This document shows, in pieces, positions 1,946-33,677 of a stretch of DNA of 64,000 bases. The position numbers were made by a program, and so were the translations under genes. Numbering within the stretch: position 1 is the first letter of the stretch; each line of letters begins with the position of its first letter. The notes under the pieces are model-generated. The model ran no database searches. It was not told where the DNA came from and was given only the letters and a program-made list of their open reading frames with translations. The DNA comes from Sulfurovum sp. AR (GTDB lineage: Bacteria > Campylobacterota > Campylobacteria > Campylobacterales > Sulfurovaceae), in assembly GCF_000296775.1 (NCBI RefSeq), contig NZ_AJLE01000003.1, positions 1-64,000 of the forward strand, read 5' to 3'.

Positions 1946-2310
1946 TGTCAGTAATATATAAAAATGAAAATATCAGGATTGAAGTAGAACAGAATGAGAT
2001 CCCCTGGCTTAAGATATTTACTCAACACGCTTACAAAGAGATGAGTGAAGTGCCTAGTGAGATAAAATTAGAAATATATAACCTTTTAGACATCATAGAA
2101 AAAGAGATGCTCTCGTATTACAAACCTAAAAAAATAAATATTGCCAGTTTTGGTAATTATATGCCTCATGTACATTGGCATATCATGGCACGTTTTGAAG
2201 AGGACAGTTTTTTCCCTGAACCTATGTGGGGTACAAAACAGCGTGAAAGTAGTTTGAAGTTACCAGATTTTGAAAGATTTTGTGAAAACGTGGTTAAAGC
2301 TATAGTATAA
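1945..2310 (+). CDS. HIT family protein
   Basis: This 121-residue protein has the histidine triad H75-V-H77-W-H79 in the segment MPHVHWHIMAR, which defines HIT nucleotide hydrolases or transferases. The family usually hydrolyses AMP-linked substrates such as Ap4A or adenosine phosphoramidates; the true substrate here cannot be read from sequence. Its start codon overlaps the last base of the preceding stop, so it is translationally coupled to the Sua5-like gene and sits at the end of the carB operon. A strong hairpin follows. Confidence 0.8.
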   Translation: MSVIYKNENIRIEVEQNEIPWLKIFTQHAYKEMSEVPSEIKLEIYNLLDIIEKEMLSYYKPKKINIASFGNYMPHVHWHIMARFEEDSFFPEPMWGTKQRESSLKLPDFERFCENVVKAIV

Positions 2311-2687: not shown

Positions 2688-4316
2688 ATGATACGAATGG
2701 CCAAAAAAATGGAAAAAGCGGCAATCAAGAGTAGTGGTTTTGATTTTATAAGACTTGGTTTTGCGCTCTTTTTTCTCGTAGCGGTTTTGACCTATAGTTT
2801 TTTAAGCTCAGGGCATATACCAAATAATATGTTTTTAGCTATCGCCGCACTATTTGGTGCCTATATGGCTATGAACATCGGTGCGAATGACGTTGCAAAC
2901 AATGTAGGCCCTTCTGTTGGTTCAAAAGCACTTACCATGGGTGGTGCCATTGTCATTGCAGCTATATTTGAGGGCGCTGGTGCATTTATTGCCGGTGGAG
3001 ATGTTGTAAAGACCATTAAAAAAGGTATTATTGACATCAATGCATTCGGTACCAATGTTGATCCTTTTATTTGGGCGATGATTGCAGCGCTCCTGGCTGC
3101 AGCACTATGGCTGAACTTCGCAACGATGATGAAAGCGCCTGTATCAACCACCCACTCTATCGTAGGGGGTGTGATGGGAGCAGGTATTGCTGCTGCAGGA
3201 TTTACGATAGTGTCATGGGGCACTATGGGTCAAATAGCTGCTTCTTGGATCATATCACCGGTGATTGGAGGAGTCATTGCAGCAATATTTTTATATGCCA
3301 TCAAAAAAACGATCATATTTCAGAATGACAAAGTTGCCGCAGCCAGAAAATGGGTACCTATTTTTGTAGCTATTATGTCTTGGGCATTTATGACTTATTT
3401 AACACTTAAAGGCCTCAAAAAGATCTGGCCTTCGATCGTAGATATGTTCGTCTTTCTCCCGGATGAAAAAACACCTTCTTTCCTTACCGCATCTATATTT
3501 GGACTTATAGTGGCTGTAATCGTGTATATAATCATGAATAAAACGGTTGCAAAGAGAGCAACCAATCTTCATAACACCAGAGATTCGATCAATTTACTCT
3601 TCACTGTGCCATTGATCTTTGCAGCAGCACTATTAAGTTTTGCTCATGGTGCAAACGATGTAGCCAATGCTATTGGTCCATTGGCAGCGATCAATGATGC
3701 TGTGATCACAGGCGGAATTTCTGCTAAAGCTGGTATACCTTTATGGGTGATGGCTGTAGGCGCACTTGGTATTGCTCTTGGACTTGCACTGTATGGACCA
3801 AAACTGATCAGAACAGTCGGTAGCGAGATCACCGAACTAGATCAGATGAGAGCATTCTCCGTAGCCATGGCTGCAGCTATTACAGTGATCATCGCTTCTC
3901 AGTTAGGTCTTCCTGTCTCTTCAACCCATATTGCAGTTGGTGGTATATTTGGTGTAGGTTTTTTACGGGAATATCTTGAATCTACTGGACAAGTAGAACG
4001 AATTGAAAAACAGCAGATCAATATAGAAGATGAAAAAAGAGTTTTGAGAGCATATAGCAGTGAACTTATAACATTAGAGGAGAAAACAGATAAATCAAAA
4101 GCAGATTATGAAAGAATCGTTGATCTTTATCAAAAAATTGACCAGGAAGAAGAGCGGATCAAAGCGGCAAAAAAACGTATAAAGAGTGTAGAGAAAGTCA
4201 AATATGTCAAAAGAGATGCCGTTAAGAAAATTATTGCTGCCTGGGTGATAACTGTACCAGCTTCAGCTGTACTTTCAGCAGCAATCTTTTTCATGATTAG
4301 AGGCATTGTCCTTTAA
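2688..4316 (+). CDS. PiT family inorganic phosphate transporter
   Basis: The product is a 542-residue inner-membrane phosphate permease of the PiT family, driven by H+ or Na+. The two family signatures are present as inverted halves: GANDVANNVGPSVGSKA near residue 65 and AHGANDVANAIGP near residue 320. About ten membrane segments are visible. A charged, coiled-coil-like stretch (about residues 440-515, rich in E, K and R) is inserted before the last membrane helix, which is longer than in minimal PitA. It stands alone after about 190 bases of AT-rich sequence that should hold its promoter. An alternative ATG lies three codons downstream (MAKKMEK). Confidence 0.92.
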   Translation: MIRMAKKMEKAAIKSSGFDFIRLGFALFFLVAVLTYSFLSSGHIPNNMFLAIAALFGAYMAMNIGANDVANNVGPSVGSKALTMGGAIVIAAIFEGAGAFIAGGDVVKTIKKGIIDINAFGTNVDPFIWAMIAALLAAALWLNFATMMKAPVSTTHSIVGGVMGAGIAAAGFTIVSWGTMGQIAASWIISPVIGGVIAAIFLYAIKKTIIFQNDKVAAARKWVPIFVAIMSWAFMTYLTLKGLKKIWPSIVDMFVFLPDEKTPSFLTASIFGLIVAVIVYIIMNKTVAKRATNLHNTRDSINLLFTVPLIFAAALLSFAHGANDVANAIGPLAAINDAVITGGISAKAGIPLWVMAVGALGIALGLALYGPKLIRTVGSEITELDQMRAFSVAMAAAITVIIASQLGLPVSSTHIAVGGIFGVGFLREYLESTGQVERIEKQQINIEDEKRVLRAYSSELITLEEKTDKSKADYERIVDLYQKIDQEEERIKAAKKRIKSVEKVKYVKRDAVKKIIAAWVITVPASAVLSAAIFFMIRGIVL

Positions 4317-4368
4317 TCTTCACTTTCCCATTAAAACAAACTCGAACTCCCTCATAGCACGGACAAGA

Positions 4369-5568
4369 TCAATTCTCCTCATATTTAAAAAGCCATTTCA
4401 GTAAAAATGGTGGAGCAATGGTCGTGACAATGATGACAAAGATCAAAACAGCATAGATCTGATCATCCAGTATATCATTTACACGCCCTACTTCTGCAAA
4501 TATCAGCCCTACTTCTCCTCGTGGGATCATAGAGATACCGATCAATGCTTTCTTCAATGCACTGGTATCTCTGAGTAAAAAAGCACCTATATATTTTCCA
4601 ATAATCGCGATCACCAGGAAAACAAATGCTAAACTCCAAAATCTTACAGAAGTAAAGTCAATCACTTTTAAGTTCATTGATAACCCTACCATCACAAAAA
4701 AGATGGGTGTAAACATCTGTGCGATAGGCGTTATAGCCATTTTTACTTTCTCTAAAAATACTTCATCATGTTGTAACCCCATTCCAAAAGGAAGTATGAA
4801 ACGTCTTGAAAGTGCTATACCTGCAGCAAATGAACCTAAAATTTCAGGAGCTCCAAAAAGATGTGACATATAAGCAAAAAGCGCTATAAGTGCTATGATC
4901 AACGTCGGTATGAACCCAGGCACTCTTTTATGTTCATCAAATTTCCTCATAAAATGAGAGATAAAATGTGCAAAAGCAGGAGCCAGCAAGAAAAACAGTA
5001 GGATAAATACCGTTGTATTCAAGGTATTTGTCAGGCTTAATGTTTGTGTGATTGCATAATCATAGATAAAAACAAGCACTATCACACCTAATATATCATC
5101 CAATACTGCAGCACCAATGACGATCTGGGCAACTTCAGAATGTTCTTTTTGAAGATCTTTCAGTACCCTCATGGTTATCCCTATACTTGTCGCTGTCAGT
5201 GTACCTCCGATAAAGAGTGAGACAACCAGTGTCAAATCAAATAGATAGTAGGCCACGAATGCAGAAACAGTAAAGGGAAACACTGCACCAAACAGTGCAA
5301 CAATGATCGCTTTGCCCCCTGCTTGCTTAAGACGTGCAATATCAGTATCTAATCCGATTTCAAAAAGCAGAAGAAGAATACCGATCTCGGCCAATATTTT
5401 GAGTACATCATTCACCTCTACAAGACCAAAGCCTGAGACACCAAGAAGTATACCTGCACTAAGCTCACCCAGTACAGAAGGTATGCCCAATCGGGCAAAG
5501 AGTTCACCCAGGATCCTTGCCGTGACCAATATTAAAAAAAGTATGAGAAAAAAATTATGTACATCCAT
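4369..5568 (-). CDS. CPA2 family cation:proton antiporter
   Basis: This 399-residue protein is a Na+(or K+)/H+ exchanger of the KefB/NapA-like CPA2 family. It consists almost entirely of about 11-12 membrane helices and lacks a C-terminal TrkA-N (RCK) domain, so it is not a full Kef system. Typical segments are FEIGLDTDI near residue 75, the LDDILG acidic pair near residue 155, and GLSMNLKV late in the protein. It is convergent with the phosphate transporter and the start is the ATG close to the end of the frame. The transported ion cannot be assigned from sequence. Confidence 0.88.
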   Translation of the reverse strand: MDVHNFFLILFLILVTARILGELFARLGIPSVLGELSAGILLGVSGFGLVEVNDVLKILAEIGILLLLFEIGLDTDIARLKQAGGKAIIVALFGAVFPFTVSAFVAYYLFDLTLVVSLFIGGTLTATSIGITMRVLKDLQKEHSEVAQIVIGAAVLDDILGVIVLVFIYDYAITQTLSLTNTLNTTVFILLFFLLAPAFAHFISHFMRKFDEHKRVPGFIPTLIIALIALFAYMSHLFGAPEILGSFAAGIALSRRFILPFGMGLQHDEVFLEKVKMAITPIAQMFTPIFFVMVGLSMNLKVIDFTSVRFWSLAFVFLVIAIIGKYIGAFLLRDTSALKKALIGISMIPRGEVGLIFAEVGRVNDILDDQIYAVLIFVIIVTTIAPPFLLKWLFKYEEN

Positions 5569-5687
5569 ACTTTATTGTACAGAAAATAATATAAAATCGA
5601 TACCATTAAGAGTGTATCGTGTGAATAAAGAGAAAATCTCAATAAGGTATAATAGTGTTTTAATTAAAGGGTTTAAAAAGGTCTCTT

Positions 5688-6347
5688 ATGAAGTGTAACT
5701 GCTATCTATATAACATACTAGCAAGCTTGATAGTTTTTTCTGTTACTCTCTTGACCGGTTGCACTAAACCTATCAGCGAATTTTATCCACCGGATCCGGG
5801 ACGGACTGATAATAAAACAGTTTATGTTGTCAATCATGGAATACACACAGGTATTGTTGTACCAAAACAAGATGCGGTCCCTTATATGCATTCTTTTAAT
5901 GATTTTAAATATGCTCGATATTTAGAGATAGGTTGGGGAGATGAGACCTATTATCAAACGGATCCAAATACGCTTTGGATGGGTGTAAGAGCACTCTTTT
6001 GGCCTACAGATTCAGTGATTCATGTCGCTGCATTCCAGACAGATCCCGTAACCTATTTTCACAACAAAGAGGTAGTACCATTAAAACTCTCCCAAGCAGG
6101 TTTTACCAGAATGGTAAAAGTCATTTATGATAGTTTTGCATTGAACCAGCAGGGACAGCCTATCAAATTGGGAAAAGGGCTCTACGGCACAAGTAAATTC
6201 TATCGCGCAAAAGGATCGTTCCATCTATTCAATAATTGTAATGTATGGAGTGCAAAAGCAATCCGTTCCTCCGGCTTCCCACTAAACATATTTTCTGTAT
6301 TTACATCTGATAACATCATGTATCAATTAAAAGAGCATAAAAATTAG
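5688..6347 (+). CDS. DUF2459 family lipoprotein
   Basis: This 219-residue exported protein has a hydrophobic signal ending in the lipobox LLTGC, so it should be lipid-anchored. The rest matches the DUF2459 family: VYVVNHGIHTG near residue 46, EIGWGDETYYQ near residue 84 and FHLFNNCNVWSAKAI near residue 180. The conserved His, Asp and late Asn-Cys suggest a papain-like (NlpC/P60-type) fold, but no substrate is known. The gene stands alone, divergent from the antiporter and convergent with the FtsH-like gene. Confidence 0.8.
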   Translation: MKCNCYLYNILASLIVFSVTLLTGCTKPISEFYPPDPGRTDNKTVYVVNHGIHTGIVVPKQDAVPYMHSFNDFKYARYLEIGWGDETYYQTDPNTLWMGVRALFWPTDSVIHVAAFQTDPVTYFHNKEVVPLKLSQAGFTRMVKVIYDSFALNQQGQPIKLGKGLYGTSKFYRAKGSFHLFNNCNVWSAKAIRSSGFPLNIFSVFTSDNIMYQLKEHKN

Positions 6348-6369
6348 TCGTACTTATATGTCTACTCTT

Positions 6370-7716
6370 TTATAAACTGTCCGGAATCTCACAGGTAATC
6401 TTTTCATCACCGACTATCTCAGCGAGTTCTGTACTCTCTACTATCTCCTGTTCAATAAGCTTAAGTGCCAACGTTTCTATCTTATCCCAGTGTGTTTCTA
6501 CCAACTTTTCTGCATTTTGTTTTGCTACATGCATCCAGTGCAAAAATCTTTTTTCTATCTGTTGTTCCAGGAAGTAATTGTCTAAAGTATTGATTGCATT
6601 AAGGTTGATATAGCCCAGTTCCTTATCCATTCCCAATGTTGTAATGGCGGCATAAGCTTGTAAAGAGGCTTGTGAAAGGTCATTCTGTGCTCCACTGTCC
6701 ATCTGATCATCCCCCATTTTTTTCACTTTTGCTAAACGACCAGATAGCAGAACACAAATATCATGGAACAAGTCTATCTTTGAGATATTTGATAGTGGAT
6801 CTTCCTCATTGTAAGAGACAAAACCAAGCATCTTGCTTCGTGGTGAAATAGTCACTTGCTCAATTTTAATATGAGGTAAAAGAAGTACTGAAAGCACTGC
6901 ATGTGCTGCTTCATGATAGGCTGTCATTTTAAGTTCTTTTTCGAGTGTTTCAACCATCTGCTTTTCAACTTTATGCCCGTACTTGATAATATTTATCTGT
7001 TCAATGAGTATCTCTTCGGTGATATGCTCTTTATCCTGTTCTACTACACTCAGTGCTGCCATACGCCCTATTCTTTCCAATTCCAAGGCACTCATACCGG
7101 TGATATAACGCACAATTCGTTCAACATCTATTTTGGGGTCATGGGGTTTTTCCAAGATTTTTTCTATAAAAAATCTTCTGGCATCCTTGTCCAGTTCCAA
7201 AACCTCCAATAAAAAATCAAGCTTTTGTGGTGAAGTGAGTATAGGATCAATCTCATCAAGGCTCTCAGCTGTAGCAAAAGTAAAAACCCGTTCATCTGTG
7301 GACTCTAGTATCTTGGCAATATCTGAAAAAGAGACATTGGTGATCGCCCCCTGCATAATGCCTTTTATATCAATATCTTCTAGTATCACAATACAGGGAG
7401 CATTTTTGGAGGCAATATCGTATATCTCTTTGATATACTCCAGTTCAAAAAGTTTTGAACCTGATATCTCCAGATAAGGGACTCCTGCCTCTTTTGCAAA
7501 TGCTTTTGCAAGCATACTCTTCCCTACACTTACAGGACCATAGAGCAGTAGACCTTTAGGAATGGGAGTATCAAATCGTTCAAGCATTTTCGGATTTTTA
7601 ATGATCTTAATAATACCCTTGAGACGTTCTTTGATATGCTTATGCCCTACGATATCATCAAATCCAATTTTAGATTGCTTTATTTTTGGTGTATCTTTTG
7701 TTTTTTTTGCTGACAT
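6370..7716 (-). CDS. FtsH-like AAA/M41 metalloprotease, soluble, degenerate ATPase
   Basis: This 448-residue protein has the FtsH order AAA module then M41 zinc protease, but no N-terminal membrane anchors, so it is predicted soluble. The protease site is intact: H268-E-A-A-H272 and a likely third ligand D346 in SGAQNDLSQ. The ATPase is altered: Walker A is GPVSVGKS (60-67), Walker B reads ILEDID with the usual D-E order swapped, the FVGVGA pore loop is absent after ISGSKLFE, and TSPQKLDF replaces RPGRFDR, removing both arginine fingers. I infer a partner-dependent or regulatory paralogue of the real FtsH. It is transcribed alone, divergent from upp. Confidence 0.85.
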   Translation of the reverse strand: MSAKKTKDTPKIKQSKIGFDDIVGHKHIKERLKGIIKIIKNPKMLERFDTPIPKGLLLYGPVSVGKSMLAKAFAKEAGVPYLEISGSKLFELEYIKEIYDIASKNAPCIVILEDIDIKGIMQGAITNVSFSDIAKILESTDERVFTFATAESLDEIDPILTSPQKLDFLLEVLELDKDARRFFIEKILEKPHDPKIDVERIVRYITGMSALELERIGRMAALSVVEQDKEHITEEILIEQINIIKYGHKVEKQMVETLEKELKMTAYHEAAHAVLSVLLLPHIKIEQVTISPRSKMLGFVSYNEEDPLSNISKIDLFHDICVLLSGRLAKVKKMGDDQMDSGAQNDLSQASLQAYAAITTLGMDKELGYINLNAINTLDNYFLEQQIEKRFLHWMHVAKQNAEKLVETHWDKIETLALKLIEQEIVESTELAEIVGDEKITCEIPDSL

Positions 7717-7805
7717 TTTTAACCTTTGTACACTCTATATCATCTAATTCTATCATAACTCTTTCTCTAAACCATATATATTGTTTCAGTAGTATAGAGT
7801 TTGGC

Positions 7806-7811
7806 TATAAT
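7806..7811 (+). promoter_or_regulatory. -10 box of upp
   Basis: TATAAT lies 26 bases before the upp start, preceded by no clear -35. An AAAGG ribosome site follows at about 7827. Confidence 0.5.
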
Positions 7812-7837
7812 AAAGTATTTAAAGTGAAAGGTATCTT

Positions 7838-8461
7838 ATGATCTATGAACTCTCCAATCCTGTTGCAAAAACTTTATTGAATCATTTACGAGAAAAGAAA
7901 TCGGATGCATTGCGTTTTCGACATATCGTCCAAGAATTATCTAGACTTCTTGTCTACGAAGCCTTAAAGAATGAAACGCTTTATGATCAAACAGTCACTA
8001 CATGGCAAGGTGAGGAAACATTTGGATTTATTAAAGAAGAAGATATTATTTTTGTCACTATCTTACGTGCAGGTCTTCCTATGATAGAATCTGTTACTGC
8101 ACTTTTTCCAAATGCATCTTCAGGGTTTCTAGCTATGAAACGTGATGAAAACACCCATCAAAGTATACTCTATTATGACCGTATACCCGAGTGTGAAGGG
8201 AAAACTGTTATTATTGTCGATCCTATGGTAGCGACTGCTGGATCACTCTGTGATGCGATATCTGTTATTGAAGGGAAATCACCCAAAAAGATCATCTCAC
8301 TCAATATCATCGGTTCTCCGGAGGGCATGGCAGTTTTAAAACAAAAACATCCAAACGTAGAAGTATTTATTGCACACATTGATAAAAAACTAAATGAGTA
8401 TAAGTTCATCATTCCAGGATTAGGAGATGCTGGAGATCGATCATATAATACTATGAACTAA
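7838..8461 (+). CDS. upp: uracil phosphoribosyltransferase
   Basis: The enzyme converts uracil and PRPP to UMP in pyrimidine salvage. The 207-residue length is standard for the family. The PRPP-binding loop is seen as VIIVDPMVATAGS (about residues 125-137) and the uracil-binding C-terminus as IPGLGDAGDRSYNT. The N-terminal substrate-contact segment ILRAGLPM is also present. The gene has its own -10 box and ribosome site, and no partner permease is adjacent. Identification is secure. Confidence 0.95.
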   Translation: MIYELSNPVAKTLLNHLREKKSDALRFRHIVQELSRLLVYEALKNETLYDQTVTTWQGEETFGFIKEEDIIFVTILRAGLPMIESVTALFPNASSGFLAMKRDENTHQSILYYDRIPECEGKTVIIVDPMVATAGSLCDAISVIEGKSPKKIISLNIIGSPEGMAVLKQKHPNVEVFIAHIDKKLNEYKFIIPGLGDAGDRSYNTMN

Positions 8462-8666
8462 AATATTTATCTAAATCAGATTTATCAATATATTCTTATT
8501 CATAAGTAAATATGATTGATAATAAAATGTCAGATAATAGTTAATATTTACGAAAAAAACATATTTACACCTATAAAACCCCTATTTTCAGTATCTATTA
8601 AGAGAGAATCTCCCATAATTATATTTATAATAAATATAATTTATTTTCTAAACTGAAAGGTATGTT

Positions 8667-9872
8667 ATGGAAAGAAGAGATTTCTTTAAAAAAGCTATTG
8701 TAACTGCTGGTGCTGCAGCTGTAGGTACCAGTACATTAGAGGCAGGGGTAACAACTCAACCTATTGATAACAGAAAAGTATCACCGGTTGCTTTTCCAGA
8801 GAAAAGACCACTGATCATGTATTCTGACAGACCACCTTTATTGGAAACACCTAGAGATGTATTTACCTCTGCACTTACACCAAATGATCAGTTCTTTGTT
8901 CGTTGGCATATGCCAGATATCCCAACTCATATTGACCCAGATACCTATACGATCCACGTCAATGGTCTTGTAAAAAATGAGCTCCATATCTCACTGAATG
9001 ACCTCAAAACCAAGTTTGAACAGGTAGAAGTAACCGCTGTTCTTCAATGTGGTGGTAACAGTCGTTCTGCATTTAAACCTATCGCTGGTGGTATCCAGTG
9101 GGGTTCAGGTGCCATGGGTTGTGCAACATGGAAAGGTGTTCGTTTAAAAGATATTCTTCACCTGGCAGGATTGGAAAGAGATGCAAAGTGGATCGGGTTT
9201 AACGGTTCTGAAAGAGCTGCTTATTATGAAACACCTGAATTTGTACGTGAACTTGAACTCAGTGAACTTGATGACCACGTGATCTTGGCGTACGAAATGA
9301 ACGGTGAAGACCTACCATACCTTAATGGTTATCCTCTTAGACTAGTACTTCCCGGGTATTACTCTGATTCATGGGTAAAAATGCTTTCAAACATCACCGT
9401 AACCAATGAATATAAAAAACTCTTCTTCATGGATGTTGCTTATCGTGTACCGGATAATGAAACAGAATCAGAAACACCGGAAAAGAGATACCCTACGACA
9501 AAGCCTATCAAAAAGATGAATGTCAAGTCTGTGATCGGATATCCAACAAAAGATTCATTGGTATCTCACAAGTCTCATGTCGTAATACGTGGAGTTGCGT
9601 GGGATGATGGTCATGGTATACAAGATGTACTCATTTCTACAGATGGTGGAAAGACATGGGATAAAGCCATTCTTGATGACGGTAAACTCGGTCGTTATGC
9701 TTATAGAGCCTTTAGATATCCATATAAGCCAACTACATTCGGTAAAGTAACGATCATGGCTAAAGCGATCAATAAAATAGGACAAGAACAGCCATTTGCC
9801 AAAGATATCAAATGGAATCATGGTGGATATAAATATAACGGTATCGATGAAGTTACTGTGGAGGTAGTATAA
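8667..9872 (+). CDS. sulfite dehydrogenase, molybdopterin subunit (SorA/SoxC-like)
   Basis: This 401-residue protein is a periplasmic sulfite-oxidase-family molybdoenzyme. The N-terminus RRDFFKKA plus a hydrophobic stretch is a Tat signal (residues 1-26). The molybdenum-ligating cysteine is C128 in LQCGGNSR, and the R79/H81 pair in FVRWHMPDIP fits the active site. A dimerization domain follows in the C-terminal third. It overlaps the next gene, a monoheme cytochrome c, by one base, the arrangement of SorAB, which oxidizes sulfite to sulfate and passes electrons to cytochrome c. SoxC (with SoxD) is the alternative, but no sox genes are adjacent. Confidence 0.88.
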   Translation: MERRDFFKKAIVTAGAAAVGTSTLEAGVTTQPIDNRKVSPVAFPEKRPLIMYSDRPPLLETPRDVFTSALTPNDQFFVRWHMPDIPTHIDPDTYTIHVNGLVKNELHISLNDLKTKFEQVEVTAVLQCGGNSRSAFKPIAGGIQWGSGAMGCATWKGVRLKDILHLAGLERDAKWIGFNGSERAAYYETPEFVRELELSELDDHVILAYEMNGEDLPYLNGYPLRLVLPGYYSDSWVKMLSNITVTNEYKKLFFMDVAYRVPDNETESETPEKRYPTTKPIKKMNVKSVIGYPTKDSLVSHKSHVVIRGVAWDDGHGIQDVLISTDGGKTWDKAILDDGKLGRYAYRAFRYPYKPTTFGKVTIMAKAINKIGQEQPFAKDIKWNHGGYKYNGIDEVTVEVV

Positions 9873-10180
9873 TGAAAAAATTGATTTTAATTGCAGCACT
9901 GCTGGCATCACCGCTTTTTGCACAGGTAAACGAAAAAGTAGAAGTACCTTATGTTGCTTTCCCCATCAAAATGGGTGACGGATTCGATGCAATACAGACA
10001 CATTGTCTTATGTGTCACTCTTTTGGATATATTATAAACCAGGGAAGACAGTCTAAGAAGTTTTGGCGTGGTAAAGTGGATAAAATGATTGTACACTTTA
10101 AAGCACCTATGGATGAAGCAGCCGCTAAAATAACGACAGATTACCTTTTTGAACATTACGGAAATGGAAAACTAGAATAA
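9872..10180 (+). CDS. monoheme cytochrome c subunit (SorB-like)
   Basis: A 102-residue periplasmic cytochrome c with a Sec signal peptide (cleavage near LFA-QV) and one heme site C45-L-M-C48-H49. A late Met (M71 or M79) could be the axial ligand. It starts inside the stop codon of the molybdopterin subunit (TAATG), so synthesis is coupled, and the pair most likely forms a SorAB-type sulfite:cytochrome c oxidoreductase. The size is close to known SorB subunits. The electron acceptor is not encoded nearby. Confidence 0.82.
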   Translation: MKKLILIAALLASPLFAQVNEKVEVPYVAFPIKMGDGFDAIQTHCLMCHSFGYIINQGRQSKKFWRGKVDKMIVHFKAPMDEAAAKITTDYLFEHYGNGKLE

Positions 10181-10190
10181 TTTTATTACA

Positions 10191-10209
10191 CCACCTCTTA
10201 TTGAGGTGG
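10191..10209. terminator. hairpin after the sorAB-like pair
   Basis: CCACCTC-N5-GAGGTGG forms a perfect 7-bp stem 10 bases after the cytochrome stop. It is between convergent genes and has only weak flanking T runs. Confidence 0.55.
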
Positions 10210-10248
10210 ATCTCTCTACATAACTATATTATTTACTCTCTTCTTAAT

Positions 10249-11067
10249 TTATCTGTCATTTTTATTTGTTTCTGACTCATTTGTTTTGGTTTTCGTCTTT
10301 GTTCTAATACGCTCTCCATCCTGGTTTACCCTCGTCTTTGTTCTAACGCGCTCTCCATTCTGATTCACTCTGCTCTTTGTTCTGACACGTTCACCATTCT
10401 GATTGACCCTAGTTTTAACTCTGACGTGTTCTCCATTTTGGTTTACTCTGGTCTTTGTTCTAACACGATCTCCATCTTGTTTCACTCTAGTTGTCGTTCT
10501 GACACGATCGCCATTCTGATTTACTCTAGTCTTGACTCTAACGCGTTCGCCATTCTGGTTGACCCTAGTCTTGACTCTGACACGCTCACCATTCTGGTTG
10601 ACTCTGGTCCTTGTCCTTATATTATCTCTAACATTTGTTCTTGTATTTGTATATTCTCTATTAGTGTTGCGATTACGATCACGATTTCTATAGTGACTTG
10701 ACCTTTGGTAGGCAGCTTTACTTCTATAATATCCATATTTGCCCTCTACCGCACGATAACGATGTCTATTATGGTAGCGATACCCTTTATGGAAATAATG
10801 TCCATGAAGGAATTTACGATCACCAAAATAATAATATCCATTACTGTAATATCCACCATAATAGTAGATTCCACTGTAATAGTAGTAAGGTACACCATAA
10901 TAGTAGGGATAAGGGTAACTTGAAAGAGATACTCTTACACTAGAGTATGGCACCGGGTCGTAATATCCGGAATCATAGTAACCTGAATGATAAGTTGTAC
11001 ATCCGGAGAAGAACAAGGTGGAAGATGCTACGGTAACCAGCCCTAAATATTTTGTTTTATTTAACAT
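10249..11067 (-). CDS. lipoprotein with Tyr/Gly-rich region and 13-residue tandem repeats
   Basis: This 272-residue predicted lipoprotein has a signal ending in FFSGC, a Tyr/Gly/Ser-rich stretch (about residues 22-85), a basic R/N/Y-rich linker, and then eight tandem copies of a 13-residue unit close to TRVNQNGERVR(T/V)K. The tail is Lys/Thr/Asn rich. The start at 11067 is chosen because AGGA precedes it by 6 bases and it begins the signal peptide; an in-frame ATG lies nine codons upstream. The repeat part is strongly basic, so binding to an anionic polymer such as LPS, DNA or exopolysaccharide is conceivable, but I do not recognise the family. Confidence 0.75.
   Translation of the reverse strand: MLNKTKYLGLVTVASSTLFFSGCTTYHSGYYDSGYYDPVPYSSVRVSLSSYPYPYYYGVPYYYYSGIYYYGGYYSNGYYYFGDRKFLHGHYFHKGYRYHNRHRYRAVEGKYGYYRSKAAYQRSSHYRNRDRNRNTNREYTNTRTNVRDNIRTRTRVNQNGERVRVKTRVNQNGERVRVKTRVNQNGDRVRTTTRVKQDGDRVRTKTRVNQNGEHVRVKTRVNQNGERVRTKSRVNQNGERVRTKTRVNQDGERIRTKTKTKTNESETNKNDR
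10297..10608 (-). repeat. eight in-frame 39-bp tandem repeats
   Basis: Eight 39-bp units encode 13-residue copies of TRVNQNGERVRTK-type sequence. Units differ mainly at positions 4, 6, 8-9 and 12-13 (N/K, N/D, E/D, R/H, V/T, K/T). The array lies in the lipoprotein gene. Confidence 0.9.
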
Positions 11068-26751: not shown

Positions 26752-27180
26752 CTACAATATCAAAAATAAAGAGCACGCATTATAGAACATGTGAAGAAAG
26801 ATACTAGCCCCAATGTGTCCATACTGCTCTTTAAAATACCCGAAGACCAAAGAAGGTACAAAAACAAGCATTGCCCATAACGGTGTATGATGTACGAAAT
26901 GCATCGCAACAAATAGTAGAGATGTTATGAAGTTAGCAACTGATATGTAAAAAAGAGATGGATACTGTTTCGTCTTTGAAGCAATGAACTCCTGGATCAC
27001 TCCACGAAAAGCCAACTCCTCCACTACCGGATAAATAATGATCAGAAAAAATAGAGATCGAGTATCGAAGTCTAGTAGATCAATATCAAATATTTGATGT
27101 TGAAATAGAGTGTTATAAAGAAGGATAAACAGAGGAGCAGCCAGGACAGCCGCTCCTAAATGAATATGTATTTTATTCAC
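26752..27180 (-). CDS. CPBP-family intramembrane glutamic protease (sorting-signal protease)
   Basis: A 142-residue membrane protease of the CPBP/ABI (CAAX-like) family with four helices. The conserved sites are E54-E55-x3-R59 in VEELAFRG, H94 in AMHF and H130-x3-N134 in LHMFYN. It is shorter than general CPBP proteins. It sits eight bases downstream of a large exported protein that ends with a Gly-rich, Cys-containing, one-helix, Arg-rich tail. This is the layout of dedicated sorting pairs such as the JDVT-CTERM system, so I infer that it processes that single neighbour. Confidence 0.75.
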   Translation of the reverse strand: MNKIHIHLGAAVLAAPLFILLYNTLFQHQIFDIDLLDFDTRSLFFLIIIYPVVEELAFRGVIQEFIASKTKQYPSLFYISVANFITSLLFVAMHFVHHTPLWAMLVFVPSLVFGYFKEQYGHIGASIFLHMFYNACSLFLIL

Positions 27181-27188
27181 AAAGAAGA

Positions 27189-29084
27189 CTATTTAATAAA
27201 TCTTCTTCTGAAAGGATAGAGTAATCCCAGAGCCATCATCACTAGGAACATCATGTCAAAGTTCTTGCTGTCAGGGTTGTATGTACAACCTCCACCACCA
27301 CTGCTTGGGTTTATAACATCTGCAGGTGGTGTGACTGGGGTTATCTCTGCCGTTGTCTCTGCTGTCAAGTTTTGCTCGACACCATCAGCACCGTATCTTA
27401 CATCGGTATAATACGCAGTTACAACTGTACCATCTTGCACTGCCAGGATACCATTATTATCTATAGCCACAGTTTCTGTTTCTAATGATCCTATAAATAA
27501 TGAACTGTTTGCATCTCTTTCTATCAATAGAACACTTTCTTCTCCACCTAAACTACTTTTTACAACAACAGTTAAGTTTTCTTCTTTCGTTGGATCCGTA
27601 TTAAGATCAGTATCGGCAACAGCCACTCTTAATGTTGTACCTGCAGTAAACGTTGGTTCAGGTACAATTGTAATATTTCCTTCCGAACTGAATACAGGTA
27701 ATGCAGGTGGCACAGTTGTGTGTATAGGTGCTGTTTGATTACTATCTACATACGGTGTAATACGTAAGATAAATGTATCACCTATAGCACTCTTTGCCCC
27801 AACATTTATAATATAATTTAGCCCAAGATTCAATACGTCTTCAATTTTTCCTACGCTATATAAAGGATTAAGTGCCCACTGTTGAAGGTCCACATCATCC
27901 ACTGGTGCCCAATTGTCAGCCATACCTTTATACCAATCTACAGGTAAATTTGTTCCAGGAGGTACACCCCAGAATGCCATTAAATCAGCATCTGTGCTAG
28001 GATCATTGTCATCATCATAGAAGATACCATATGGTGCCCACTCAGAATGTATCCAGTCACCAAAGAGTTGAGGGTAATTTCCTCCAGGTACACTACCTGT
28101 ATCACCAGCTAATGGAGCTGTATTATATATACTATAGTTACCTTCACCCAAAGTAGATGGATAATAAGCTCTATCAATATCAAAGAATCCTATCTCATCA
28201 AAATGACCCTCTTCTATTGGCCCCCATAAACCATGTGCAAAGTTTGCAAACTCATCAGGGAGAAAAATATTATAATCTCTTGATGCTATATCACCTTCAC
28301 CGATACCTAATGAAAGTGTTAGATTCGGATCCGTAGTAGGAACACCTAGAAGTCCATACTTTAATACTTCAACTTTATATCCTGCTAGACGCGCACCTGT
28401 ATAGTTATTAATCTTTGAAAAAACTTGGTATCGAACTACATTTTCAGCATCAGGATCGTTAGGATCAAGTTTAAATACTATATCAACTGGGTTACCATAT
28501 CCTGCTATATACTTTCCTAGCAGATCTTTGTTCACAGTAGTTGGCTGGAGGTTTATTTTAAAACGTTTATGGGTTTGAAACCCACTTGAACAGATAGTAG
28601 GAACAGGGCCTGCGTCAGCAGTTGTATCCAAATATCCACTCTCACCTGTTCCCGTATTATACTCATCCAAATAAGAAGTCGTCATGATACAATTTGATGG
28701 TTTACCATGTTTTGTTCCAGTGTCATCATTAATGACTTTTATTCCTGCAGGTTCACCTACAGGCCAATCTTTACCATGCAATTTTCCCCTTACTTCACCA
28801 CCTGTGCTAATTATAGATTCAAAACTCATAGTATCGTCCATCTCTGGATATACTGCACTCGCCTGTAAAATGTCTCCATAAATAATATCACTAAAATCAC
28901 TATCACTAGTTATATTGACTACAACATTATCCAAGCTCCATCCACCATAACCAAATTGTGTACTATCAAAAACAGTATCACCTGGTGTTGCACCGATGAT
29001 TTTACCTGCATATACACTTGACCCAAGCAGCATCGCTGCCGCTACACTCATACCTAAAATTTTATTTTTATAGTTTTTTTTCAT
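27189..29084 (-). CDS. exported protein with C-terminal GGGGC/helix/RRR sorting tail
   Basis: A 631-residue secreted protein with a signal peptide (to about residue 27) and a tail typical of protein-sorting signals: SSGGGGC600, a short spacer NPDSKNFD, a hydrophobic helix and FRRRFIK. The body (FKINLQP, DIVFKLDP, VFSKINNYTGARLAGYKVEV) resembles 'choice-of-anchor F' type surface proteins. A repetitive, acidic Ig-like stretch precedes the tail. The CPBP protease gene follows by eight bases. The cysteine could become lipid-modified after cleavage; that is inference. Surface location and function are unknown. Confidence 0.72.
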   Translation of the reverse strand: MKKNYKNKILGMSVAAAMLLGSSVYAGKIIGATPGDTVFDSTQFGYGGWSLDNVVVNITSDSDFSDIIYGDILQASAVYPEMDDTMSFESIISTGGEVRGKLHGKDWPVGEPAGIKVINDDTGTKHGKPSNCIMTTSYLDEYNTGTGESGYLDTTADAGPVPTICSSGFQTHKRFKINLQPTTVNKDLLGKYIAGYGNPVDIVFKLDPNDPDAENVVRYQVFSKINNYTGARLAGYKVEVLKYGLLGVPTTDPNLTLSLGIGEGDIASRDYNIFLPDEFANFAHGLWGPIEEGHFDEIGFFDIDRAYYPSTLGEGNYSIYNTAPLAGDTGSVPGGNYPQLFGDWIHSEWAPYGIFYDDDNDPSTDADLMAFWGVPPGTNLPVDWYKGMADNWAPVDDVDLQQWALNPLYSVGKIEDVLNLGLNYIINVGAKSAIGDTFILRITPYVDSNQTAPIHTTVPPALPVFSSEGNITIVPEPTFTAGTTLRVAVADTDLNTDPTKEENLTVVVKSSLGGEESVLLIERDANSSLFIGSLETETVAIDNNGILAVQDGTVVTAYYTDVRYGADGVEQNLTAETTAEITPVTPPADVINPSSGGGGCTYNPDSKNFDMMFLVMMALGLLYPFRRRFIK

Positions 29085-29166: not shown

Positions 29167-30450
29167 TTAAAACAGCATATTGAAACTAATGAGGAAATCT
29201 CTATAGTCTTCTATATCTGATCTTGACGGTTTTGCCCAGCTATGCTCTACCGTCAGCTTCATAGGTAGGTAGTACTTGAACGAATAGTCCATTCCAACGG
29301 TGATGGCATTATCCAAATCTTTTACATTGATGTGTTTTGTATTAGAATAAGCATAAAGATCATTCATTGTAAGGTACGCAAGTTTCACACCAAAACCTGG
29401 AGCAAGATTGACTTCACCTCCTACAGAGAATGCTTCATTATCAATATTATCTAGATCTTTAGAGCTACCAGCACCTATACCTGTATAGGTCACTTCATTT
29501 TTAAAGACTTTACTCATCGTTAAAGTAGCACTTTTATCACCGATGTAACCCTCTACCATGAAGTCCATTCCATAGGTCTCACGCTCTATGCTGAGAGAAC
29601 TCGTACTAGATACAGTCTCCCCACCTTTAATAATAAATCCACCTAAGATAACATTATAACTACCTAGAGGGTATTCATATGCGATTCTAGCAAAAGGAAT
29701 CATATTACTTGTAAGATCCATTTGGTTATTATCTTGCCCCTGAGCATACATACCCACGGTTGCAAACACATGATCACCATCTGCCAGTGCACCGTCCTTA
29801 TCAAAGTAGGCTTGTAGTCCTGTTGCAGCACCTGTGCCAATCTCTGTTGCCTGTAGTGCATTGGAGAGTCTTCTTATGTCAAACGTTCTAAACGGTTTAT
29901 AAAGACCTGAATTATAGATCTCCATACCGGAGAATGGACCAAAATCAGCTGTAGAGTACGCTGCTAATCCCATGTATCCATCTTCTATCTCTTGTGCATA
30001 AACCATTTTACCTGAAATGGAATTATCATTCTGAGATTTGTAAGAGAGGTTGACAAGAGCTCCAAAATTATTTGTCACCCTTCCCCCCACAAACAATGCA
30101 GCTGTTCTAGGTACAGATAAAATACCGTCATTGGTTACCGTAGTAGCTTTGACCACTCCAGATTCACTCGGTTTATTATCTGTCTTTTCGTAAATAGACT
30201 TGAACATCACAGATGGATTGATATCCGAACCGCTACTGTTTGCATCTGTGAACTTCTGGCTCATGGTCATACCTGAAGCCAAAAACTTTCTACCAAATTT
30301 ATTGAGTCTTTCTATGTGTTGTATATGACATGCCGTACAGTCCATACCTGTCTGTGTAGCAAACATAGGCATAGCCATTACTTCAGTTGTCAAACTGATG
30401 AATCCAAGTAGCCCGACTGCTACCAAACTCTGTTTATTCATTTTCTTCAT
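29167..30450 (-). CDS. Cyc2-like outer-membrane cytochrome-porin fusion
   Basis: A 427-residue protein with a signal peptide (cleavage near VMA-MP), one heme c site C38-T-A-C41-H42 directly after it in MPMFATQTGMDCTACH, then about 370 residues of alternating amphipathic strands ending in a terminal Phe, typical of an outer-membrane beta-barrel. This layout, and the FGRKF segment after the heme, resemble the Cyc2 family of fused cytochrome-porins used for outer-surface electron uptake, especially from Fe(II). Divergence from characterised Cyc2 is likely, so the donor is unknown. It precedes the sorting pair on the same strand by 82 bases. Confidence 0.7.
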   Translation of the reverse strand: MKKMNKQSLVAVGLLGFISLTTEVMAMPMFATQTGMDCTACHIQHIERLNKFGRKFLASGMTMSQKFTDANSSGSDINPSVMFKSIYEKTDNKPSESGVVKATTVTNDGILSVPRTAALFVGGRVTNNFGALVNLSYKSQNDNSISGKMVYAQEIEDGYMGLAAYSTADFGPFSGMEIYNSGLYKPFRTFDIRRLSNALQATEIGTGAATGLQAYFDKDGALADGDHVFATVGMYAQGQDNNQMDLTSNMIPFARIAYEYPLGSYNVILGGFIIKGGETVSSTSSLSIERETYGMDFMVEGYIGDKSATLTMSKVFKNEVTYTGIGAGSSKDLDNIDNEAFSVGGEVNLAPGFGVKLAYLTMNDLYAYSNTKHINVKDLDNAITVGMDYSFKYYLPMKLTVEHSWAKPSRSDIEDYRDFLISFNMLF

Positions 30451-30590: not shown

Positions 30591-30896
30591 ATGTCGTTCA
30601 TAAAAATAGGAGTATCACTTTTTGCAGTAAGCTTTCTTTCTGCATCACCCACTCATACAATTTATGTACAAAAATGTGCTAGCTGCCACGGTGTGAATGG
30701 AGATATGAAGGCAATGGGAACTTCTAAAGCGATCAAAGAGATGCCAGTCGAAGAGATAGAAAAAGCACTCATCAGCTATGCGTCAGGCGAAAGAAAGGCA
30801 CTGCCCTTTGTTAAAAGTATAAAAGAAACTTTTATGAAAAATCACACTAAAGAAGAGCTTCATGAAGTTGCTACCTATATTCATGGCCTAAAATAA
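30591..30896 (+). CDS. periplasmic monoheme cytochrome c
   Basis: A 101-residue cytochrome c with a short signal peptide (cleavage near LSA-SP) and one site C-A-S-C-H near residue 29 in VQKCASCHGVNGD. This CxxCHG-NG/GD context is the class I cytochrome c (c553/c5-like) style common in Campylobacterota. A Met near residue 42 or 47 could be the second ligand. It is divergent from the Cyc2-like gene and could carry electrons from it, which is inference from position. It is followed by two hairpins. Confidence 0.85.
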   Translation: MSFIKIGVSLFAVSFLSASPTHTIYVQKCASCHGVNGDMKAMGTSKAIKEMPVEEIEKALISYASGERKALPFVKSIKETFMKNHTKEELHEVATYIHGLK

Positions 30897-30970: not shown

Positions 30971-30995
30971 GGTGCTATTTAAATAGCCCTTTTTT
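30971..30995 (+). terminator. rho-independent terminator
   Basis: The palindrome GCTATTTAAATAGC with flanking GG/CC is followed by T6. It ends the cytochrome c transcript just before the convergent Gly-rich gene. Confidence 0.65.
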
Positions 30996-31257
30996 AGTGA
31001 CGACCGCCACCACCTCTTTGTCCACCCATCGAGCCCATATTCGATCTATTTGAATTTGTACCTTTATACTCATACTGGTTTTGATATTGATATTTATATT
31101 GGTTTTTTTCACCACTACCGTCTTTGAGTCTTTTTTGATACTGTTGTTGAAGTTTTTGTTCCATTCTAAGATGTTGCTGTAAACTGTCCTCTGCAGCAAC
31201 TAAAGAAGGTGTGGCTAAAAGTGCTACAGCACCCAATGTTAATAAAGTTTTTTTCAT
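30994..31257 (-). CDS. small secreted Gln/Tyr-rich protein with Gly-rich basic tail
   Basis: An 87-residue exported protein: signal peptide (cleavage near VAA-ED), a Q/K/Y-rich middle (QQHLRMEQKLQQQYQKRLK then YQYQNQYEYKG), and a Gly-rich end GGQRGGGGRH. No family is recognised. Its tail resembles that of the next gene upstream on the same strand (31341), suggesting a related pair. Its promoter carries the two 11-bp repeats shared with two other nearby units, so it is probably regulated by the adjacent two-component system. The role in the envelope is unknown. Confidence 0.7.
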   Translation of the reverse strand: MKKTLLTLGAVALLATPSLVAAEDSLQQHLRMEQKLQQQYQKRLKDGSGEKNQYKYQYQNQYEYKGTNSNRSNMGSMGGQRGGGGRH

Positions 31258-31340: not shown

Positions 31341-31730
31341 CTATCTTCGACCTCCTCCGCCACCGCTACCTGATCCACCACCCATGGATCCTCCCATGCC
31401 TGAATTACCACCATATCCACTCATGAAGTTACCCTGTGCCGAACCATCATTGAATTTGAATTTAAATCTTGATCTGTTGTCATAGTCATAACTTTCTGAT
31501 TTTTTTTCGGCCGCAGCTTCATTTCCAGATCCTATACCATTTGATTTATATTCATCTTTAAATACAAAACGTTTCTTCTTTTTAGAAGGTTTCTTTTGAG
31601 GCTCAGGTTTGGTCAGTGCTTTCTTCTGACCTGCCTGTTGAAGGATATTCCCTAATCCTTTCTCCTCTGCATGAAGTGACATGGCGCCAAATATACAAAG
31701 TGTAGGAAGTATATATTTACATTTCATCAT
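31341..31730 (-). CDS. small secreted basic protein with Gly-rich tail
   Basis: A 129-residue exported protein: signal peptide (cleavage near LHA-EE), a Lys/Pro-rich stretch with KKPSKKKKRF, a Phe/Lys region RSRFKFKFNDG, and a Gly/Ser/Met-rich tail ending in GGGGGRR. I chose the tandem ATGs at 31730/31727, which have AAGG upstream and begin the signal peptide; the open frame extends further upstream across the divergent regulator gene but has no ribosome site there. It is divergent from the response regulator and shares the two-box promoter type. Function unknown. Confidence 0.7.
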   Translation of the reverse strand: MMKCKYILPTLCIFGAMSLHAEEKGLGNILQQAGQKKALTKPEPQKKPSKKKKRFVFKDEYKSNGIGSGNEAAAEKKSESYDYDNRSRFKFKFNDGSAQGNFMSGYGGNSGMGGSMGGGSGSGGGGGRR

Positions 31731-31754
31731 TAGCACCTTACTCAATTTTTGTTT

Positions 31755-31789
31755 ATTATAGTAAAAAAGTATGAAAGAAGTATGAAAAA
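31755..31789 (-). promoter_or_regulatory. promoter of the 31341 gene with tandem 11-bp boxes
   Basis: Reading the - strand: TTTCATACTTC, TTTCATACTTT, spacer TTTAC, then a perfect TATAAT (31760-31755). The boxes (31768-31789) also lie just upstream of the -35 position of the divergent response regulator gene, so one site could control both. Confidence 0.65.
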
Positions 31790-31807
31790 CTCTTTTCCTG
31801 AGTATGT

Positions 31808-31813
31808 TATAAT
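31808..31813 (+). promoter_or_regulatory. extended -10 box of the response regulator gene
   Basis: TGTTATAAT (TATAAT with TG one base upstream) lies 23 bases before the ATG. It is 18 bases downstream of the tandem boxes at 31768-31789. Confidence 0.5.
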
Positions 31814-31836
31814 CATAGTAAATATCAGGAGTGCCG

Positions 31837-32511
31837 ATGAAAATTTTATTATTGGAAGATGATATAGGTTTGGCCGATATCATGTCAGAGTATCTTGAAG
31901 ACAATGATTTTGATCTAGACCTTGTCTATGATGGGGAAGAAGCACTGAATAGAGCCTATGAGACACAGTATGACCTCTATATCTTCGATGTCAATGTGCC
32001 TGCGATCAAAGGTTTTGATCTATTGAAAACACTGCGAGACAATGGTGATGCCACCCCTACGATATTTGTCACATCTCTCAATGACATAGAGGATGTATCA
32101 CAAGGCTTTGAAAGCGGTGCAGATGATTACCTCAAAAAACCTTTCGAACTTGCCGAACTTCTTTTACGTATTAAAAACATCCAGAAGCGTTCTTTTGCAC
32201 AAAAACGTTCTAACATGATACAGATAGATAAAGATATCACTTTTGATATAGATACGGAATTACTCCATACAGGTGGAGAGAGTGTTTCTCTGCCACAAAA
32301 AGAACTTAAACTGCTTAAACACTTTTTGAAACATCCCAATGAGGTCGTCACATTTGAAAGTCTGTATGATGTACTCTGGGACTATGATGAAACAGCCTCA
32401 GCTGAATCTCTAAGGGCACATATAAAAAATCTTAGAAAACACCTGACCAAAGATATGATACAGAACCTTAGAGGTCTTGGTTACAGGTTTGAAATGGAAA
32501 CTTCAGACTGA
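31837..32511 (+). CDS. OmpR/PhoB family response regulator
   Basis: A 224-residue two-component regulator. The receiver domain has the acidic pair E7-D8-D9, phospho-acceptor D51 in IFDVNVP, the switch T in IFVTSLND, and the K in DDYLKKPFE. The C-terminal winged helix (about 128-222) ends with the typical LRAHIKNLRKHL and RGLGYRF. The ATG at 31837 is preceded by AGGAG at 5 bases; a GTG two codons earlier overlaps that site and is unlikely. The kinase gene overlaps its stop (ATGA). It probably binds the tandem 11-bp repeats nearby, the site type used by this family. Confidence 0.93.
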   Translation: MKILLLEDDIGLADIMSEYLEDNDFDLDLVYDGEEALNRAYETQYDLYIFDVNVPAIKGFDLLKTLRDNGDATPTIFVTSLNDIEDVSQGFESGADDYLKKPFELAELLLRIKNIQKRSFAQKRSNMIQIDKDITFDIDTELLHTGGESVSLPQKELKLLKHFLKHPNEVVTFESLYDVLWDYDETASAESLRAHIKNLRKHLTKDMIQNLRGLGYRFEMETSD

Positions 32512-33677
32512 TGAAGGCTAGTACCAAAAGTGTCATTATTTTCATGGTTGTCTACCTGGGGTCACTCAGTATTTTAGCCACATGGGTGGGGTATCTTAAT
32601 TATATAGACCGTAAGAATGCTTTGATCGAGAAGATGCATTTGGAAATGCGATACAAAGCGAGAAGTATCAATGCACAGTTGGAATACTACCATATGAACA
32701 AAAGTGAGCAATTCACTTTTTATGAAGAAGGGTATGACATCGCACTCTATGATAACAAAAGAGAACTCCTAGCTTCCACATTCATGGATGATATTGATTT
32801 TTCCAAACTCTTCTATGCCGATGATGACGAATACTATCTTGTAGAGACACTCTACAAAGAGTATCTTGATGTTAAATACATAGTGATCAAGAAACCTCTT
32901 GATATACAACAGTTAAATGAGATCCTTGAAGAGATCACTCTCATAGCTTTTTATGGATTTATTTTTATACTTTTTGTCGCACTTCTCTTGGCCAAGATCA
33001 TGTTATCTCCCATCAAAAGATCCATCGCCTCTCTCACCAAATTCATGAAAGATGCCACCCATGAGATGAATACTCCCATCAGTACGATACTCATGAGCTA
33101 TGAACATATGGACAAACACAATCTCGATGCAAAACAGATTCGCTCACTTGATCGTATAGATATCGCAACCAAAACCCTCTCCAGTCTTTACCGAGACCTC
33201 TCTTTTGCTTCTTTCCATGACTATATAGAGTATGAAGACACACCAATAGATGTCAAAGAGGTGATCCTTGAAAGAATCAAGTATATGGATACACTCATAC
33301 AGTTTAAAGGGCTAAAGGTCAGCACTGCATTACAACCCAAGACGATCTATATGGATCAACGAAAACTTATCTTGCTTATAGACAACCTTCTCTCAAATGC
33401 GATAAAGTTCTCTAAAAAAAACGGTGAGATCGAAGTAAGTTTGACTGAGAACTATTTTTCTGTAAAAGATAATGGCATCGGTATTTCAAAAGAAGATCAA
33501 AAAAGTATCTTTGATCGTTTTAAATCCACGAACAGTTTACATGGCGGATTTGGTGTGGGATTGGATATAGTGAATCAGATCTGTAAAGAGTATCATATAA
33601 AGATCGAACTGGAGTCAGAGCCTAAAAAAGGAAGTACATTTAGACTGGTATGGCCAGAACAAAAATTTAATAAATAA
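32511..33677 (+). CDS. sensor histidine kinase
   Basis: A 388-residue inner-membrane kinase, the partner of the preceding regulator. Two membrane helices (about residues 8-28 and 143-165) bracket a small acidic periplasmic sensor domain of about 110 residues with FMDDIDFSKLFYADDDEYY. The H box is ATHEMNTPIS with H184, followed by N box DNLLSNAIKFS, G1 VKDNGIGI and G2 GGFGVGLDIV. No HAMP domain is evident between helix 2 and the H box. The cue is unknown; an acidic sensor patch could bind cations, which is speculation. Confidence 0.92.
   Translation: MKASTKSVIIFMVVYLGSLSILATWVGYLNYIDRKNALIEKMHLEMRYKARSINAQLEYYHMNKSEQFTFYEEGYDIALYDNKRELLASTFMDDIDFSKLFYADDDEYYLVETLYKEYLDVKYIVIKKPLDIQQLNEILEEITLIAFYGFIFILFVALLLAKIMLSPIKRSIASLTKFMKDATHEMNTPISTILMSYEHMDKHNLDAKQIRSLDRIDIATKTLSSLYRDLSFASFHDYIEYEDTPIDVKEVILERIKYMDTLIQFKGLKVSTALQPKTIYMDQRKLILLIDNLLSNAIKFSKKNGEIEVSLTENYFSVKDNGIGISKEDQKSIFDRFKSTNSLHGGFGVGLDIVNQICKEYHIKIELESEPKKGSTFRLVWPEQKFNK

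Follow-up and report, generated by a model that had tools for sequence, protein, structure and literature searches.

A JDVT-CTERM/MrtJ sorting pair adjoining a Cyc2-like cytochrome-porin gene in Sulfurovum sp. AR

Genes and features of the locus

The locus lies within a 64,000-nucleotide stretch of the Sulfurovum sp. AR genome, which as a whole is referred to here as the window. Its central gene (27189-29084, minus strand) encodes a 631-aa exported protein, the cargo, which carries a signal peptide of typical appearance at its N-terminus, as judged by eye from the sequence, a choice-of-anchor F domain, and a JDVT-CTERM tail. The domain covers residues 106-443 (28769-27756, minus strand) and scores 158.8 bits against NF033657 (choice_anch_F), for which the cut-off is 50. 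The tail (27198-27302, minus strand; 49.3-54.2 bits), with the sequence GGGGCTYNPDSKNFDMMFLVMMALGLLYPFRRRFIK, consists of a glycine-rich motif containing Cys600, a hydrophobic helix, and an RRR cluster, and the protein ends in RRRFIK. Residues 595-629 match the JDVT-CTERM model NF033191 with 49.3 bits (E 3.3e-13, cut-off 27). Only this tail passes the cut-off in its own genome (2.13 Mb, 11 contigs), where a second stretch reaches 12.7 bits and stays below it, and none passes in the control genomes (0/14), indicating that the match is not due to chance.

Downstream on the same strand, after a gap of 8 bp (27181-27188), lies mrtJ (26752-27180, minus strand), which has a GTG start and encodes a 142-aa glutamic-type intramembrane protease of the CPBP/Rce1-like kind. 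Its reading frame scores 119.5 bits against the equivalog model NF033192 (cut-off 75) and also matches the Rce1-like Pfam family PF02517. Without exception, the 19 MrtJ sequences compared have the catalytic residues E54, E55 xxx R59, H94, and H130 xxx N134. The myxosortase models all scored below their cut-offs with MrtJ (MrtX 32.4 against 180 bits, MrtC 58.5 against 195, MrtP 52.1 against 250), and a search for MrtJ on viral contigs found none.

These results bear out the preliminary description of the pair, which had read from the letters an exported protein of the choice-of-anchor F kind, with a Gly-rich Cys motif, a helix, and an Arg cluster, beside a small glutamic protease eight bases away with E-E-x3-R, H, and H-x3-N residues. 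The tail and the domain exceed curated cut-offs in the profile searches, the coordinates are exact, and the protease residues recur in all 19 MrtJ sequences. Because the choice-of-anchor F, JDVT-CTERM, and MrtJ models are all over their curated cut-offs, we assign the pair formed by 27189-29084 and 26752-27180, both on the minus strand, to the published JDVT-CTERM/MrtJ sorting system.

Immediately upstream of the cargo gene and 82 bp from it, likewise on the minus strand, is a gene (29167-30450) for a Cyc2-like fused cytochrome-porin of 427 aa, with a CTACH motif at 30339-30325. Pfam and NCBIfam gave no match for this frame, which was recognized with a strict-motif Cyc2 profile. Searches of solved structures gave chance-level best matches for the cargo (E 0.56) and the Cyc2-like protein (E 0.16), and no match at 0.1 for the MrtJ profile. 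Structure predictions with three sequences as input gave unusable models of the cargo (pLDDT 35) and of the Cyc2-like protein (pLDDT 29), where a porin barrel of about 16 strands would mark a Cyc2 protein.

Divergent from the operon is a gene for a 101-aa monohaem cytochrome c (30591-30896, plus strand; PF00034 Cytochrom_C, 9.3e-07), and a small monohaem cytochrome c is found near the Cyc2-like gene in most related loci. It is followed by genes for two small exported proteins with Gly-rich tails and basic ends, GGGGRH and GGGGGRR (30994-31257 and 31341-31904, both minus strand, the start of the latter being uncertain), homologues of which are again found next to the Cyc2-like module at related loci. 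A response regulator (31831-32511) and a histidine kinase (32511-33677), both on the plus strand and named by eye, complete the neighbourhood; their homologues are likewise kept beside the module elsewhere. A promoter scan found 15 sites where 18.2 are expected by chance and, showing no excess, was not used.

With respect to export, 60 of 78 Sulfurovum genomes have GspD over its cut-off, and 75 of 78 have some GspD match, whether MrtJ is present or absent. In the genome of origin, GspD and GspG pass their cut-offs and lie in a cluster with GspC-, GspE-, and GspF-like genes that score below theirs. Since Gsp genes are present, a type II secretion route is predicted to be available.

Co-distribution of tail and protease and exchange of cargo

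Across the genus set of 78 genomes, 18 have MrtJ and 19 have the JDVT-CTERM tail above the respective cut-off, and all 18 fall within the 19 (Fisher p 9e-17 over the 78 genomes, with related genomes counted as independent). The lone genome with a tail and no MrtJ, G428, is 78% complete. Every one of the 19 mrtJ genes directly follows a JDVT gene, 18 of them within 0-44 bp in ORF coordinates; in G457 the tail frame reads on, so that the two frames overlap. The tail is thus recognized in relatives together with the protease, and the identification as a JDVT-CTERM-like sorting pair, already suggested in the preliminary description, is upheld by this co-conservation as well as by the three curated models.

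In a phylum draw of 397 genomes, MrtJ is over cut-off in five, all from the same genus as the Sulfurovum set. Of 24 named loci (L133-L156), 12 have a regular-expression match to the tail no more than 9 kb from mrtJ: six of six loci from Campylobacterota, four of which (L133, L134, L135, and L138) repeat genus-set genomes (G453, G423, G365, and G415), and six of 18 from elsewhere. Adjacency of tail and mrtJ is weaker in other phyla. MrtJ is over cut-off at L152, L153, L154, and L156, in genomes labelled Nitrospira (two), Mariprofundus, and Nitrosospira, and a JDVT tail lies near mrtJ in the first three of these loci. At L123, in genome G409, a 63-aa mrtJ remnant (2085-2276, minus strand) directly follows a choice-of-anchor F gene, while a full mrtJ is on another contig.

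The design with one dedicated substrate, also part of the early reading, stands for the genome of origin with its single tail and fails for the genus, where one mrtJ can occur alongside two to four JDVT genes. Two matches over cut-off are found in G219 (which has two mrtJ genes), G419, and G425, three in G453 and G418 (the latter with a broken fourth below cut-off), and four in G409. The 29 JDVT proteins compared, including the cargo, share the motif GGGC[TS]xNP without exception, one of them being cut by a contig end, and their ectodomains fall into seven clusters of 13, 5, 4, 3, 2, 1, and 1. Representatives include choice-of-anchor F and choice-of-anchor O proteins, S8 subtilases, a C10 protease, and a lectin-domain protein, among others. 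In a tree of 24 MrtJ rows, the Sulfurovum rows group together (support 93/98), the rows with S8 cargo (G372 and G463) are nested among those with choice-of-anchor F, and at least two changes of each cargo label are needed to fit the strongly supported branches. These patterns indicate that the cargo is swapped while the anchor stays.

The Cyc2-like porin and its linkage to choice-of-anchor proteins

Cyc2 is defined by the motif AXPXFAR[Q/K][T/Y], followed by CXXCH and PXL (Keffer 2021, PMC8406198). The protein in the window resembles Cyc2 in its signal-like N-terminus (judged by eye), its single CXXCH near the N-terminus, its length of 427 aa (the criterion being at least 365 aa), and its score against the strict-motif profile (168.7 bits, E 2e-50). 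It differs in the motif itself, which reads AMPMFATQT-GMD-CTACH-IQHI-ERL, so that the arginine is missing and PXL is replaced by ERL. The arginine is absent from 15/15 Sulfurovum copies, and PXL is present in 10/15. As the defining motif fails, an assignment to Cyc2 proper was rejected and the protein is named Cyc2-like; with the arginine lost in all copies, iron oxidation by these proteins is uncertain.

The profile was built from 14 strict-motif rows, with one gene fetched twice and one row from a Mariprofundus genome, and finds 18 such sequences among 1557 ORFs, the next best scoring 15.1 bits. The choice of strict rows is not independent, since the rows were found with a Sulfurovum profile; the motif test itself is independent. 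The presence of Cyc2 in Campylobacterota is already reported in a published study (PMC12442345). Tandem pairs of Cyc2-like genes were seen in three genomes of another Campylobacterota family (L274, 7517-10234; L275, 7543-10241; L276, 7254-9956), where one of the L274 copies carries the strict Cyc2 motif.

Within the genus set, a Cyc2-like gene is present in 16 of 78 genomes: 14 are full-length, that of G417 is a fragment at the end of a contig, and that of G405 is a distant match. G428 has an additional second, distant match. Choice-of-anchor F occurs in 10 of 78 genomes, and in 10/10 the Cyc2-like gene adjoins it, even though the Cyc2-like proteins are down to 46-50% identity and the outer flanks vary between loci. 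Choice-of-anchor O occurs in 7 of 78, overlapping with choice-of-anchor F in G409, G418, and G453. Together, choice-of-anchor F and O mark out precisely the set of 14 genomes in which the Cyc2-like gene is full-length, although these co-occurrence counts are affected by kinship.

The choice-of-anchor O proteins are anchored in two apparent ways. In G409, G418, and G453 they have a JDVT tail, the G453 copy lying after mrtJ in the same operon. In G225, G402, and G423 the gene is beside the Cyc2-like gene and its product has an N-terminal lipobox (judged by eye) and no JDVT tail; in G457 the choice-of-anchor O gene beside the Cyc2-like gene is broken. The Cyc2-like and choice-of-anchor O genes of G225 occupy the site that the porin and cargo genes have in the window, with the pur genes and the 86-aa gene on one side and the two-component genes on the other. 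Outside Sulfurovum, 16 Campylobacterota genomes with Cyc2-like genes were found, and the nine of their loci that were read have no choice-of-anchor neighbour detectable by profile.

Two broader associations were considered and rejected. A tie between MrtJ and the Cyc2-like gene fails in 5 of the 19 JDVT genomes, which have no Cyc2-like gene (G219, G365, G372, G461, and G463) and in which mrtJ serves, for example, S8 proteases, and in G225, G402, G423, and G457 mrtJ is found at a different place, together with another cargo. MrtJ itself is therefore not bound to electron transfer. Nor does choice-of-anchor F always come with electron-transfer genes: in the order of the Alcanivoracaceae it is found in 8 of 293 genomes, with a haem neighbour only at L142. 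That locus (3754-10285), from an Alcanivoracaceae MAG, has two tandem choice-of-anchor F/JDVT genes, mrtJ, and, directly after mrtJ, a gene whose 607-aa product, a lipoprotein as judged by eye, contains five CXXCH motifs. Another of the choice-of-anchor F proteins of this order, at L296, has an apparent PEP-CTERM tail, again by eye.

Interpretation and comparison with known systems

The reading we favour builds on the membership of known families, the conservation of tail and protease together, the linkage in an operon, and the exchange of partners. In it, MrtJ probably provides the anchor for a protein that partners a Cyc2-like electron conduit at the outer surface. The signal peptide would export the cargo, and the C-terminal helix and arginines would hold it in the inner membrane. 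The Cys of GGGGC is probably lipid-modified; MrtJ would then cut beside the modified residue and the helix would be removed. Once displayed, the choice-of-anchor F protein would most likely work with the Cyc2-like porin as the surface partner of an outer-membrane electron conduit. The anchoring half of this reading we regard as secure for a prediction from family models, while the electron-transfer half we infer from gene linkage and co-occurrence and do not hold to be general. On the same grounds, the porin, rather than the protease alone, appears to be the cargo's closer functional neighbour.

A possible alternative is that this is a plain JDVT-CTERM/MrtJ pair for a generic surface protein, such as an adhesin or binding protein, with the Cyc2-like gene an inherited neighbour lacking any functional link. 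It would fit the unrelated ectodomains that MrtJ serves (S8 and C10 proteases, the lectin domain, choice-of-anchor O) and the seven of eight choice-of-anchor F genomes in the other order that have no haem neighbour. Mere inheritance sits less easily with the unbroken linkage of choice-of-anchor F to porins as divergent as those described above and among changing outer flanks, or with the unrelated choice-of-anchor O gene beside the same porin in four other genomes (one copy broken), where the anchor is independent of MrtJ.

The roles of CPBP proteases are varied, and this analysis identified no lipidating enzyme, so the cargo might instead be periplasmic or held in the inner membrane, with MrtJ serving in quality control by setting it free into the medium and not as an anchoring enzyme. 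We consider this improbable: the tail Cys is kept in 29/29 proteins, choice-of-anchor O is found with either a JDVT tail or an N-terminal lipobox, both of them membrane anchors, and a related myxosortase leads to surface anchoring (PMC11980579). That the tail serves as a plain C-terminal membrane anchor and is never cut is hardly credible, for while a helix that ends in basic residues can keep a protein in a membrane, MrtJ is always beside a JDVT gene, tail-less genomes have no MrtJ, and the tail signature, common to unrelated ectodomains, is conserved far beyond the needs of an anchor.

Taking the sorting pair and its porin linkage together, we tentatively suggest that the Sulfurovum Cyc2-like porin may work only with a surface partner. 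Choice-of-anchor F and O would alternate in this role, anchored through JDVT/MrtJ or as an N-terminal lipoprotein, even at the same site, and the partner might gate or extend electron uptake from iron, a sulfide mineral, or another cell and compensate for the lost arginine.

The pair confirms the predicted sorting system in another phylum and offers a very small, clean set of parts for studying JDVT-CTERM. The tie between cargo and porin is correlational and is the most interesting addition; it gives the choice-of-anchor F and O families a first function that can be tested, and it raises the possibility of a surface partner for electron conduits of the Cyc2 type. The bacterium is a sulfur oxidizer, and its genus is common at hydrothermal vents, where it may use extracellular electron donors. 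Literature linking either Sulfurovum or Cyc2 to CTERM was not found among titles and abstract openings.

The JDVT-CTERM/MrtJ system itself is known, and our additions are a wider phylum range than that given in PMC11980579, several targets per genome, and the porin tie. In that source, MYXO-CTERM proteins are the experimentally documented relatives, for which myxosortase cleavage and T2SS-dependent surface location were demonstrated. They share with the present system a tripartite tail with an invariant Cys, a helix, and arginines, a related CPBP protease, and T2SS genes. They differ in number, Myxococcota typically having dozens of targets per genome (PMC11980579), compared with one to four here. 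The closest counterpart is MrtJ with a single JDVT target, described there as a two-gene system sporadic in beta- and gammaproteobacteria (PMC11980579). The tail, the protease, their adjacency, and the catalytic residues are the same in the locus described here, which differs in its occurrence in Campylobacterota, in the number of JDVT genes, which reaches four in one genome, and in the linkage of its cargo to a Cyc2-like porin.
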